The notes under the pieces: generated by a model
What the model was told of the DNA's origin: nothing
Seen by the model: the letters and a program-made list of their open reading frames with translations, nothing else
The model's database searches: none
Shown: positions 17,968 to 22,387 of the stretch, one piece after another
How positions within the stretch are numbered: position 1 is the stretch's first letter
Layout of the letters: the number at the start of each line of letters is the position of its first letter
Position numbers and translations under genes: made by a program
NCBI GenBank assembly: GCA_016744905.1
Contig: JADGDM010000014.1
Coordinates: 1-50,505, forward strand
Direction of reading: 5' to 3'
DNA from: Sulfurimonadaceae bacterium
Lineage (GTDB): Bacteria > Campylobacterota > Campylobacteria > Campylobacterales > Sulfurimonadaceae
DNA: 50,505 nt

Positions 17968-18513
17968 TTATAAACTCTTATACATAATGCGAACTATTCC
18001 ATAGCCATTGCCAACTTGGTATTTTTCTTCACCTAAAACTTTGTAACCCCATTTAGCATATATAGACAAAGCCAAGGTGTTCTTTTCCCAAACGCGTAAA
18101 TAAATACCATTCATTTTCATTTTCTTAGCATAGTTTATAGAATGCATATGCAGTTTTGTACTTATTCCTAGCCCTTTATATTGGTTATCAACATAAAGGC
18201 GCTGAAGCTCAATACTTTTAGGATAGGGGATACATGCAGGCAACTCTGAGTGAATTAATTTTAAATATCCATATGGATTAGATTGTTTTAAATCTTGACA
18301 AATGAAATACTCTGCTGAAGAATTTAGTATTTCACTATAAATGAACTCTTTGGAAAAAGCATTTTGGGTGTATGTTTCTAATTCATGGTAGGGTAATGCA
18401 GATAAATAAGCATCAATAAATGATTTTTTTCCAAAGTCAGATAAATATTCCGTATGGGTGAGATCTGCTTTAAGAACAGATAATATATTGCCTCTACTTG
18501 TTATCAATTTCAT
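17968..18513 (-). CDS. GNAT-family N-acetyltransferase
   Basis: A 181-aa GNAT protein. The acetyl-CoA-binding core is visible as LQRLYVDNQYKGLGISTKLH (about 104-123), followed by MNGIYLRVWEKNTLALSIYAKWGYKVLGEE, the usual motif B with a Tyr acid. The substrate may be a small molecule or a protein N-terminus; the sequence does not say. Its first codons overlap the end of the upstream MerR gene by 20 bp, so the two are one operon. It ends 42 bp from the convergent GGDEF gene. Confidence 0.85.
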   Translation of the reverse strand: MKLITSRGNILSVLKADLTHTEYLSDFGKKSFIDAYLSALPYHELETYTQNAFSKEFIYSEILNSSAEYFICQDLKQSNPYGYLKLIHSELPACIPYPKSIELQRLYVDNQYKGLGISTKLHMHSINYAKKMKMNGIYLRVWEKNTLALSIYAKWGYKVLGEEKYQVGNGYGIVRIMYKSL

Positions 18514-19174
18514 CTTTTAAAGCTTTAAATAATACCTTATAGGTTGAGCGATTGAAAATGTATTCTTTCGTTTTAAATAAAGTATCAAACATGATTTTCC
18601 ATAGTACTGAAAAGTTCTCTTCGCTACGAACAGCACATAATTGTTTTTGCATTTCGTGTTCAAGTTTCGCAAGTATCTTTGCCTGTTTGACATACTCTTT
18701 AACTATAGTGTATTCAACACCTACCTCCATAAAATTCTCTATTAAGTTGATGATAGAAGCTTCTTTTTGTGTATAGTCATTTTTACTGATGGGCATCAAT
18801 ATGTCATCGTCTAGCAAGGTAGATAATAGTTCTGTATCAATATCAAAATGGATAATGAATTCATCTTTAGAATAATGTCGTGAATTTATTTCATTTCCAC
18901 TAAGGGTATTCATTAATGGCTCTAACATCGTGTAAGAGCTAGAAAATGAGTTGTTTTTTTGCTGGAGTGTTAGTTTAAGTTGTTCGTTTGTACTTCCCAT
19001 CTCATCTTTCATATATTTTATATATTTTATAAGTTCAACATGCTCATCATTGTATCTGTGGACATTAGATTTTAACTTTTTTGCACTGGGGAGCAAACCC
19101 TCTTTTATATAATAAAGTATGGTAGATTTAGGTGTATTACTCTTAGATACTAATTCAGATATTTTGTATTCCAC
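18494..19174 (-). CDS. MerR-family transcriptional regulator
   Basis: The DNA-binding domain is at the N-terminus (YKISELVSKSNTPKSTILYY, then IKEGLLPSAKK), followed by a linker helix and a C-terminal effector domain without obvious metal-binding Cys. The open frame extends 31 codons further, to 19267, but that extension runs through a promoter and a 25-bp dyad. I start at GTG 19174, which has AAGGA 5 bases upstream and puts the MerR domain at residue 1. The product is 226 aa. It is followed by an overlapping GNAT gene and is divergent from a short ORF and a deformylase-like gene. Confidence 0.8.
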   Translation of the reverse strand: MEYKISELVSKSNTPKSTILYYIKEGLLPSAKKLKSNVHRYNDEHVELIKYIKYMKDEMGSTNEQLKLTLQQKNNSFSSSYTMLEPLMNTLSGNEINSRHYSKDEFIIHFDIDTELLSTLLDDDILMPISKNDYTQKEASIINLIENFMEVGVEYTIVKEYVKQAKILAKLEHEMQKQLCAVRSEENFSVLWKIMFDTLFKTKEYIFNRSTYKVLFKALKDEIDNK

Positions 19175-19202: not shown

Positions 19203-19245
19203 ATTATAGCATATACTTCTAAACGTAAAGTATAACTTAACGTTT
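19203..19245. promoter_or_regulatory. MerR operator dyad and divergent promoter
   Basis: A 25-bp near-perfect dyad (19221-19245, AAACGT ... ACGTTT; 10 of 12 base pairs match) contains a TATAAC box for the plus strand at 19231-19236. On the minus strand, TATAAT (19208-19203) preceded by TGC forms an extended -10 box 29 bp before the MerR start codon. A dyad of this kind between promoter elements is the usual MerR arrangement and suggests autoregulation plus control of the rightward genes. Confidence 0.6.
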
Positions 19246-19260: not shown

Positions 19261-19329
19261 ATGACACATGTTAAATTAGCAGAGTTTGAGGATATGACTC
19301 CTTCTAATCTCCTTGGTTTAGGTGAATAA
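19261..19329 (+). CDS. 22-codon ORF between the MerR operator and the deformylase-like gene
   Basis: ATG 19261 follows a strong AAGGAAG site and encodes a 22-residue peptide beginning MTHVKLAEFEDMTP. It ends 2 bp before the next start, so coupled translation is possible. The beginning resembles N-termini of carboxymuconolactone-decarboxylase/AhpD-like proteins, so it may be the stump of a deleted MerR-controlled gene. A leader peptide is the alternative. Low confidence in function, moderate that it is translated. Confidence 0.4.
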   Translation: MTHVKLAEFEDMTPSNLLGLGE

Positions 19330-19331
19330 AG

Positions 19332-20132
19332 ATGATTAAAGAGATCACGAGATATCCAGCAACACCGAGTTTAGACTTTGGTGCAAATATACGGTATTTT
19401 GATGCGTCACTTGATGCATTAATCCAAGACTTAAAAGATACTATTGAAGAAAATAATTTAGATGCTTTAGCCGCTTTTCAAATCGCATCACCATATAATG
19501 TGATTGTTATTAAAGAGGAAGATAATTATATTGAGCTTATTAATGCGAGCGTTCTTAAAAGAGAAGGAACTGTTGAGCCTGTAGAGAGAACTGCTTACTT
19601 TCCTGAACTAAGTGCTAAAACAAAAAGATATAAGAAAATAAAAGTGATGTATGAAGATAGAGAGGGCAAACAACAGTTTTTGGAAGCGGATAATGATCTA
19701 TCTATTACTATTCAGAGAAAATTAGATTACTCTTTTGGTTCAAATTTTAGACTTAGATTGAATGAAGATGAAAGAAAAATATTTGATGCAAAGTTAGAGT
19801 TTGGAACAGATGCAATAACGCACAATGATTGTCCAACTGTATTTAAAAGAGACCGAATCCTTCAGATTCTTAAGGTTCTATTTATAAGTGCTATTATAGG
19901 TTTTATAGGTGGATTTTTTATTGATGGAGAAAACTTAGAGATACTTAATAGTGTTGAAAACTACATGATATTTGCTATGCTCGGGTTTATTATTATCTAC
20001 TTCTTTTATGCTCAGTATGAAGGCAAACAATATAAACATTGTACCTCATGTCAAATTGGGAATATTATTGGTGTATCTGTTATCGAGCTTAGTAAGTTAA
20101 GTCTATTAGTTGTACTAAATTACTTTTTTTAA
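19332..20132 (+). CDS. Membrane-anchored peptide-deformylase-like protein without metal ligands
   Basis: A 266-aa protein. Residues about 1-165 follow the deformylase layout, but all three signatures are broken. GLAAPQIG reads ALAAFQIA, EGCLS reads ERTAYF (no Cys), and QHEIDH reads QRKLDY (both His and the catalytic Glu lost). Flanking fold positions remain, such as VIVIKEED, LINASVLKREG and KRYKKIKVMYED. Two or three membrane helices follow (about 178-196, 212-228 and a hydrophobic C-terminus). It looks like a non-catalytic relative tethered to the inner membrane. SD is AGGTGA. A DsrE-like gene follows after 9 bp. Confidence 0.65.
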   Translation: MIKEITRYPATPSLDFGANIRYFDASLDALIQDLKDTIEENNLDALAAFQIASPYNVIVIKEEDNYIELINASVLKREGTVEPVERTAYFPELSAKTKRYKKIKVMYEDREGKQQFLEADNDLSITIQRKLDYSFGSNFRLRLNEDERKIFDAKLEFGTDAITHNDCPTVFKRDRILQILKVLFISAIIGFIGGFFIDGENLEILNSVENYMIFAMLGFIIIYFFYAQYEGKQYKHCTSCQIGNIIGVSVIELSKLSLLVVLNYFF

Positions 20133-20141
20133 GGAAATAAA

Positions 20142-20591
20142 ATGATTAAAATATTTTTATTAGTGAATTTACTTTTAATGAGTCTTCTTCAAGCCAAAGA
20201 AAACAAAGTTATTTATGACTGTAGTTCTAGTGATGCGGGATATATCAAAAGTAGAATGTGGTTGGTTGGTAAAACAATAGACATGATGAAAGAGCAAGGC
20301 GATAGCAGCAAGGTTGTTCTTACTCTTCATGGTGGTTGTGTATCCATGGTCTCTGAAGATTATGACATGATAACCCCAGATGAAGATATAGATAAAATTC
20401 AAAAAGCACAAGAGTATCTCACAAGTTTATCAAAACGAGAAAATGTTAAAATCATAGTATGTGCGATGTCTTTAAGTTCTAACGGTATCGAGAAAAAAGA
20501 GGTGTTGCCTTTTGTTAAAATATCTAAAAATAGTTTTCTTGATACTATCAAGTACCAAAATGACGGTTATGCGATAATGACATTTAAATAA
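20142..20591 (+). CDS. Periplasmic DsrE-family protein
   Basis: A 149-aa protein with a signal peptide (about 1-18, cleavage after LLQA). The mature part has the DsrE/F-like alternating pattern: KVVLTLHGGCVSMVSED, an acidic helix (DIDKIQKAQEYLTSL), KIIVCAMSLSSNGI, and the final DGYAIMTFK. Two cysteines (GGC and VCAM) sit at places where DsrE-like proteins often have one. Such proteins occur in sulfur relay systems, but exported members have no settled role. The ATG follows AAGGAAA. It probably shares a transcript with the deformylase-like gene. Confidence 0.7.
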   Translation: MIKIFLLVNLLLMSLLQAKENKVIYDCSSSDAGYIKSRMWLVGKTIDMMKEQGDSSKVVLTLHGGCVSMVSEDYDMITPDEDIDKIQKAQEYLTSLSKRENVKIIVCAMSLSSNGIEKKEVLPFVKISKNSFLDTIKYQNDGYAIMTFK

Positions 20592-20654
20592 CAAACATGT
20601 TTTTCGTGTTCTCTTTGTAACGAATTTTTACACGGTGCGCTTGGAATTCTTTTG
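20591..20654. repeat. 64-bp degenerate copy of an internal serS segment
   Basis: Bases 20591-20654 match 21261-21324 inside serS in the same orientation, with five differences by eye: A/C at 20593, G/T at 20606, A/G at 20630, T/C at 20636 and T/C at 20651. The match stops abruptly on both sides. The copy lies between the DsrE stop and the slyD terminator, so it is not translated. The pair forms a direct repeat flanking slyD and the serS 3' end. The GCGCGC palindrome in serS is GTGCGC in the copy. Confidence 0.85.
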
Positions 20655-20672
20655 GCAGCTAAAGAACTGCCA
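20653..20672. terminator. Hairpin terminator between convergent DsrE and slyD-like genes
   Basis: TGGCAG-ctaaagaa-CTGCCA, a 6-bp stem flanked by AAAT on one side and TTTT on the other, directly after the slyD stop on the minus strand. It probably serves both converging transcripts. Confidence 0.6.
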
Positions 20673-21136: not shown

Positions 21137-22387
21137 TTACATCCCCATATAAGGACGTAAAACTTCAGGAATAGTAATCGTTCCATCAGCATTTTGGTGA
21201 TTTTCCATGATGGCTACGATCGTACGTCCAACAGCGAGTGATGAACCGTTTAATGTATTTACCAACATGTTTTTCTTGTTCTCTTTGTAACGAATTTTTG
21301 CACGGCGCGCTTGGAATTCTCTTGTGTTTGAGATAGAAGAGATTTCACGGTATTTGCCTTGGCCTGGTAACCAAACTTCGATATCGATAGTTCTAGCAGC
21401 GCTAAAGCCTAAGTCTCCTGTACAGAGCTGAACGATACGGTGAGGTAAGTCTAGCGCGCTGAGGATGCCTGAGGCGGTTTCTACCATGTCATTAAACACG
21501 TCTTCACTCTGTTCAGGTTTTGTAATGGCAACAAGCTCTACTTTATGAAACTGATGTTGACGAATCATTCCACGAGTGTCACGACCAGCTGCACCTGCTT
21601 CTTTTCTAAAGCATGAGGTGTATCCTGTCATCTTAACTGGAAGTTTATCCTCTGGTACGATTTCATCTTGAAAAAGATTTGTTAGAGGAACTTCAGCTGT
21701 TGGAATTAAGTAAAGCTCTTCGTCTTGCATTTTGTAAAGATCATCTTCAAACTTTGGAAGTTGACCTGTACCCTCAAGTGCTTGGCGATTAACTAGCTGC
21801 GGTACACTTACTTCATGATAACCACGTTCACGGTTAAAGTCCAACATAAAGTTAATCAGTGCGCGCTCAAGTCTCGCACCTTCTCCATGAAGAACAACAA
21901 AACGAGAATGTGCTAATTTAACACCACGCTCAAAGTCGATCCATCCATTTTTATCACCCAGTTCAAAATGTTCTTGGATATCAAAGTCAAACTCACGAGG
22001 TGTCAATACTTTTTTAAGCTCTACATTTTGATCCTCATCATCTCCATCGGGTACATCCGCATCTGGAATGTTTGGAATAGCCATGACTACTTTAGTTAAA
22101 GCTTCCTCAGCCTCACGTTGGACATCAATGAGAGAAGTGAGCTTCTCTTTGTTCGCATCAACTTTTTCTTTCAGTTCTGCTGTATCTTTTCCCTCACGTT
22201 TATACTGGCCAAAAAGTTTACTCATTGCATTTTGATCTGCTTGCGCAGCCTCAAAGGACTGCTTCGCTATCTTAAGTGTTTCATTTTTATCTTTTAAATC
22301 GCTGAGCAGTTCAACAGATACTTTTTTTCTTGCCAGCGCGCCAGCTACAGTGTCAAAATCTTTTTGTAATAGTTTTAAATCGATCAA
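21137..22387 (-). CDS. serS: Seryl-tRNA synthetase
   Basis: A class II synthetase of 416 aa, the usual length. It has the N-terminal tRNA-binding coiled coil (about 28-105) and the catalytic core with motif 2 ([21 protein letters not shown]) and motif 3 ([17 protein letters not shown]). It charges tRNA-Ser with serine. The start is TTG 22387 behind AAGGA. The slyD-like gene follows 4 bp after the stop. The gene has four GCGCGC palindromes, and its segment 21261-21324 is duplicated 670 bp away. Confidence 0.96.

Follow-up and report, generated by a model that had tools for sequence, protein, structure and literature searches.

A membrane-anchored pseudo-deformylase conserved in Campylobacterota and often encoded behind an SQR gene

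The window analysed here, a 50,505-nucleotide stretch of the genome of a sulfur-oxidizing Sulfurimonadaceae bacterium, includes a rightwards-transcribed gene of 266 codons with an ATG start (19332–20132), recognized from its open reading frame and a Pfam match, that codes for a pseudo-deformylase membrane protein. Immediately upstream is the rightwards-oriented remnant of an AhpD-like (CMD) gene (19261–19329), reduced to 22 codons by an in-frame internal deletion; its translation matches the two ends of intact homologues, and it stops two bases before the pseudo-deformylase start. An intact PF02627 gene was sought in this genome and none was found. A leftwards-transcribed gene for a MerR-family regulator (18494–19174; PF13411, E 1.6e-14) lies beyond the remnant, with its start placed by homologues, the listed reading frame extending to 19267. 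Downstream, a rightwards-transcribed gene (20142–20591) codes for a DsrE-like protein of 149 residues whose start resembles a signal peptide by eye, and which matches PF02635 (E 1.8e-11, 44.7 bits against a cut-off of 22.7) and was aligned with seven homologues. A possible rightwards terminator follows it (20653–20672; one site found, 0.3 expected), and a promoter scan of the operon gave fewer sites than the chance expectation. The DsrE-like gene is also followed directly by one copy of a 64-nucleotide direct repeat (20591–20654 and 21261–21324, 92% identical), which by eye is a copied piece of a serine-tRNA ligase-like gene and may be a scar left when the operon arrived.

The N-terminal domain (residues 3–159; 19338–19808, rightwards) has the peptide deformylase fold according to PF01327, Foldseek and VIA-align. 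The preliminary description had proposed a pseudo-enzyme of this fold carrying a membrane anchor, and both parts of the proposal hold, the anchor having three predicted helices: a profile search, free to place the domain in another family, assigns residues 3–148 to Pep_deformylase (PF01327; E 3.8e-23, 82.3 bits against a cut-off of 22.8), phmmer matches the protein to solved peptide deformylases (PDFs) with E 4.8e-11, and the best 50 solved structures found by Foldseek are all deformylases (E 8.4e-13). The score against the NCBIfam equivalog TIGR00079, 46.1 bits, is under the cut-off of 103.95. An AlphaFold2 model built from 79 rows (pLDDT 86.8, pTM 0.60) comprises a deformylase fold and three long helices, and this predicted structure overlays on the Helicobacter pylori PDF 2ew5 with Z 20.3 and rmsd 2.7 over 153 aligned residues (VIA-align), residues 1–159 being the fold held in common with that enzyme and with the true PDF of the same genome. 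Because the pTM is 0.60, the placing of the deformylase and membrane domains relative to each other is unreliable.

The 3.0 Mb genome, in 122 contigs, contains three such genes: the true PDF (L001, with motifs EGCLS and QHEMDH), the window gene, and a second pseudo-PDF (L002) that adjoins a gene for sulfide:quinone oxidoreductase (SQR). Alignment of the window protein with L001 shows that the former motif II (EGCLS) now reads E85-R-T-A-Y-F (19584–19601, rightwards) and the former motif III (QHExDH) Q128-R-K-L-D-Y133 (19713–19730, rightwards), so that Cys95 has become T87, His137 R129, Glu138 K130 and His141 Y133. Q50, E85, Q128 and D132 of the common fold are kept, whereas the Cys, both His and the HExDH Glu are replaced, a three-helix membrane domain is added and the gene neighborhood is different. 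This corrects the preliminary description on one point: the lost catalytic Glu is that of HExDH (now K130), and the Glu of EGCLS (E85) is present. The corresponding four residues of L002 are S, V, Q and Y.

To place the protein in its family we used a first set of 82 loci, 80 from a scan of a species-genome collection together with the two copies of this genome, and a distant set of 20 members from a search of the phylum, 19 of which cover the deformylase domain. The first-set alignment has 81 rows, the fragment L077 being excluded; L004 and L017, truncated by contig ends, are missing from A1 only. At the Cys site, 80 of these 81 rows have T and one has S; R replaces the first His in 80, K replaces the Glu in 80, and Y replaces the second His in all 81. 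L002 is the single exception to the T/R/K/Y pattern. Distant members have S, D or N in place of the Cys, Q in place of the first His, M, Q, T or Y in place of the Glu and F, M or I in place of the second His, and a ligand-retaining true deformylase was sought among the 19 full-length ones and none was found. Over 100 relatives the metal-site Cys occurs in none (T 88, S 7, D 4, N 1) and the two His and the Glu of motif III are all absent from every one; the losses first noticed in the window protein thus recur throughout its homologues, and since all four residues are missing in 100/100, the loss of the active site goes far beyond chance. Retained residues include E85 and D132 (100/100 each) and Q50 (97/100), the last belonging to motif I (GxGxAAxQ), in which the window protein has L and A for the two Gly. 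The reading frames are intact in the 100 relatives, and 12 close pairs are under purifying selection, with dN/dS of 0.055–0.148 and, for the PDF domain, 0–0.153, such that the dead domain is under as much constraint as the remainder. Judged from these alignments, the window protein is a conserved pseudo-deformylase, a working protein without what a deformylase needs. Dead enzymes repurposed as binding modules are already known.

The membrane part includes C167 (19830–19832), immediately N-terminal of membrane helix 1 (residues 173–196; 19848–19919; AlphaFold2 model and hydropathy), followed in the model by helix 2 and its extension (residues 200–232; 19929–20027), a predicted cytoplasmic loop with C237-x-x-C240 (CTSC; 20040–20051; placed by loop charges) and helix 3 (residues 242–265; 20055–20126), all encoded rightwards. 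C167, C237 and C240 are present in 101/101 family members. The motif YFFYAQYE (residues 223–230), in helix 2 and its extension, is identical in 81/81 first-set members and varies in the distant set. Predicted alone, the membrane domain has a pLDDT of 88.7, gives no Foldseek match to a known fold at E <= 0.001, and resembles generic three-helix bundles only (best Z 13.6). The mean number of K and R residues in 100 sequences is 3.15 before helix 1, 1.9 in the CxxC loop and 0.69 between helices 1 and 2; these positive charges, together with an N-terminus without a signal sequence, suggest that the deformylase domain is cytoplasmic, and the predicted topology therefore puts C167, C237 and C240 at the cytoplasmic face of the membrane.

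The window copy and 24 relatives have no SQR in their loci, and in a quick tree the window copy sits in a branch (support 99) of 25 SQR-less and seven SQR-linked rows; because of the latter seven, the SQR-less set is not demonstrated as a clade of its own. Of the 25 SQR-less loci, 12 have a MerR gene, 12 an AhpD-like gene and seven a DsrE-like gene, 14 having at least one of them, and none of the three occurs in the other 57 loci. The gap between the MerR gene and the operon contains an inverted repeat, AAACGTAAAGTATAACTTAACGTTT (19221–19245), that is the likely MerR operator, and dyads related to it, near AACGTTAAGTTTAACTTAACGTT, are found in 12/12 MerR loci, the weakest being that of L005. 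The repeat, conserved in the 12/25 loci of the branch that have the MerR gene, supports control of the window operon by MerR, in keeping with the regulator that the preliminary description had put forward. The DsrE-like protein had been named there as the partner, an assignment that stands for the seven of 25 loci in the window's branch that carry the gene and fails in the other loci (0/57). As a general partner of the family it is rejected, the commonest neighbor being SQR.

The family gene has an SQR-like gene (cluster c1) upstream of it in 53/82 first-set loci and in 19/19 distant-set loci without a contig-end truncation. Among 298 Campylobacterota genomes, this SQR subtype is present in 71, a small protein discussed below in the same 71, and the pseudo-PDF in 51, all of which fall within the 71 (Fisher's p 2e-41 for co-occurrence of SQR and pseudo-PDF, a statistic that ignores shared ancestry). 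These counts exclude A2 matches in G158 and G123 (E 0.002 and 0.009, with stops), the fragments G037:C18 and G249:C32, and nine A4 matches at E > 1e-4, all containing stop codons. The pseudo-PDF gene is immediately downstream at 47 of 73 SQR places, and nine pseudo-PDF places, including the window's, are not directly behind SQR; in G163 and G116 the pseudo-PDF is about 7 kb from SQR on the opposite strand. A histidine kinase (c2) and a response regulator (c3) are encoded in 47/82 and 42/82 loci, usually after the SQR-linked gene.

The neighboring SQR is a protein of 489 residues with 84% mean column identity over 20 rows. It resembles the Aquifex SQR (3hyv, 3sz0) in sequence (E 1.2e-38) and retains counterparts of the three SQR cysteines, among them the catalytic ones; its SQR type number is probably IV. 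The gene arrangement is where it departs from the Aquifex enzyme, since here SQR is followed by the small reading frame and often by the pseudo-PDF. As 20 of the 71 genomes have SQR and the small reading frame without a pseudo-PDF, the latter is not needed for SQR as such. Nineteen of these 20 genomes were inspected (all except G206). In five genomes of one other family (L106–L109, L120), the slot after the small reading frame is read from the sequence as a thioredoxin gene, and by eye both thioredoxin-like and thioredoxin-reductase-like genes follow SQR and the small reading frame. In G218, the SQR operon encodes a 98-residue protein (L118, 2051–2347) that matches the family in the membrane domain only, with the CxxC kept, which indicates that the family is modular.

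SQR and the family gene are separated by 179–559 nucleotides, a stretch that contains a small reading frame of about 52–60 codons in 72/72 loci, and such a frame lies directly downstream of SQR at 73/73 SQR places in the phylum (e.g. L039, 4728–5000, and G000:C38:4283-4441 in this genome). The product is a predicted one-helix protein with a near-invariant core, the residues invariant across the 72 gaps being P, R, Q, R, F, N, K, M, V, V, K, S and H, and three representatives matched nothing in NCBIfam and nothing in Pfam with an E value below 0.13. It is found in 0/25 SQR-less loci, some of which end early on the upstream side (L020, L024). In a set of 72,556 plasmid records, the SQR subtype occurs in three at 60–80% identity, from Sulfurovum (also Campylobacterota), Thiodictyon (a gammaproteobacterium) and Marivivens (an alphaproteobacterium), and the small protein is encoded behind SQR in all three; a search for the small protein itself returned the same three only, though 31 other records carry more distant SQR relatives. 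The pseudo-PDF with its membrane part occurs among these records only in Sulfurovum, other matches covering the deformylase part at most. The small protein of about 53 residues is possibly a missed subunit of SQR, and as a finding it may outrank the pseudo-PDF in importance. How so small a protein could be missed is illustrated, with no claim of homology, by subunit IIa of the ba3 oxidases, which an excerpt of PMC3128077 describes as a one-helix respiratory subunit overlooked in annotation and detected by mass spectrometry in a supercomplex also holding SQR.

The only links of the pseudo-PDF to SQR are gene order and co-occurrence. It is somewhat more likely than not that the SQR-linked form acts together with SQR. 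We favor, with middling confidence, a broader reading in which the family supplies sulfide oxidation with an accessory membrane protein that combines a docking fold with a cysteine site, and the window copy is a paralogue in a MerR operon. The usual setting of the family is the operon of one SQR subtype, in the order SQR, one-helix protein of about 53 residues and pseudo-deformylase. The deformylase domain, cytoplasmic in the predicted topology, would serve for docking and would have given up catalysis, and the working part would be C167 and C237-x-x-C240. Brought together at the cytoplasmic face, these cysteines would form a thiol or metal site for taking up sulfane sulfur, for sensing it, or for keeping an assembly together. 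The SQRs of some bacteria face the periplasm, which would leave SQR and the deformylase domain on opposite faces of the membrane and counts against a partnership. The window gene may have departed from SQR to its MerR-controlled operon; there, beside DsrE-like and AhpD-like genes, it could do the same job for an inducible thiol or sulfur response; we are less sure of this role than of the action of the SQR-linked form with SQR. A more far-reaching and rather doubtful version makes this SQR subtype the core of a membrane complex instead of a solitary flavoprotein, with the near-invariant 53-residue one-helix protein as a subunit in three bacterial classes and, in Campylobacterota, a pseudo-PDF whose three invariant cysteines take SQR's sulfane sulfur; the window gene would then be a MerR-induced paralogue that either hands sulfur to the exported DsrE-like carrier or tunes the SQR module under thiol stress.

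Two other functions are each unlikely, to a similar degree. The domain could bind peptides with an N-terminal formyl-Met or Met, leave them uncleaved, and escort nascent chains at the membrane, for example those of the small SQR-linked protein. Binding of nascent N-termini was the idea of the preliminary description, and the analysis turned up nothing for it other than the fold. The escort role is suited to a retained fold with its scaffold residues, to the membrane tether, and to the tiny membrane protein encoded directly before the pseudo-PDF in 72/72 SQR-linked gaps. However, the metal ligands and catalytic Glu that act on the formyl group in true PDFs are gone in 100/100, the small protein occurs in 20 genomes that have no pseudo-PDF, and the window's own genome also has a true PDF. 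Alternatively, the protein could be a membrane sensor whose cysteines or altered pocket respond to sulfide, to polysulfide or to the redox state, passing the signal to the adjoining kinase (47/82 loci) and regulator (42/82); yet by eye the kinase pair also stands behind SQR and the small reading frame where there is no pseudo-PDF (L104, L105), it is missing from most distant loci, and the pseudo-PDF has no output module of its own. Quite improbable is an enzyme that catalyses a new reaction at the altered site, with Thr, Arg, Lys and Tyr in place of Cys, His, Glu and His: the fixation of T, R, K and Y in 80/81 first-set members does go beyond mere loss, but the set of residues varies across the family, distant members having others and the second copy in this genome S, V, Q and Y. 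That the gene is a decaying duplicate without function, as the lost enzyme residues and a damaged or misread copy on a plasmid of Sulfurovum mangrovi might hint, is scarcely credible, being contradicted by dN/dS of 0.055–0.148 in 12 pairs, by frames open in 100 relatives and by invariant residues.

The literature searched contained no paper joining deformylase with Sulfurimonas or SQR, and neither a membrane-fused dead deformylase tied to SQR nor a universal small companion of this SQR subtype was found there. At vents and in sediments, sulfide enters respiration by way of SQR, and our observations suggest that the pseudo-PDF and the small protein are unrecognized partners of this basic energy-yielding enzyme. 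If this SQR subtype always has a tiny membrane protein and often a dead deformylase, the exit of sulfane sulfur from the enzyme and the attachment of SQR to the membrane become open to experiment. The link between SQR and the pseudo-PDF is easily missed because the annotated Sulfurovum plasmid record names the three genes 'FAD-dependent oxidoreductase', 'hypothetical protein' and 'peptide deformylase', the last in two pieces, and automated deformylase counts in genomes with pseudo-PDFs would be wrong. The two annotated pieces in this record, which is from Sulfurovum mangrovi, are a single pseudo-PDF (L126, 4868–5683) divided by a frameshift or a sequencing error.
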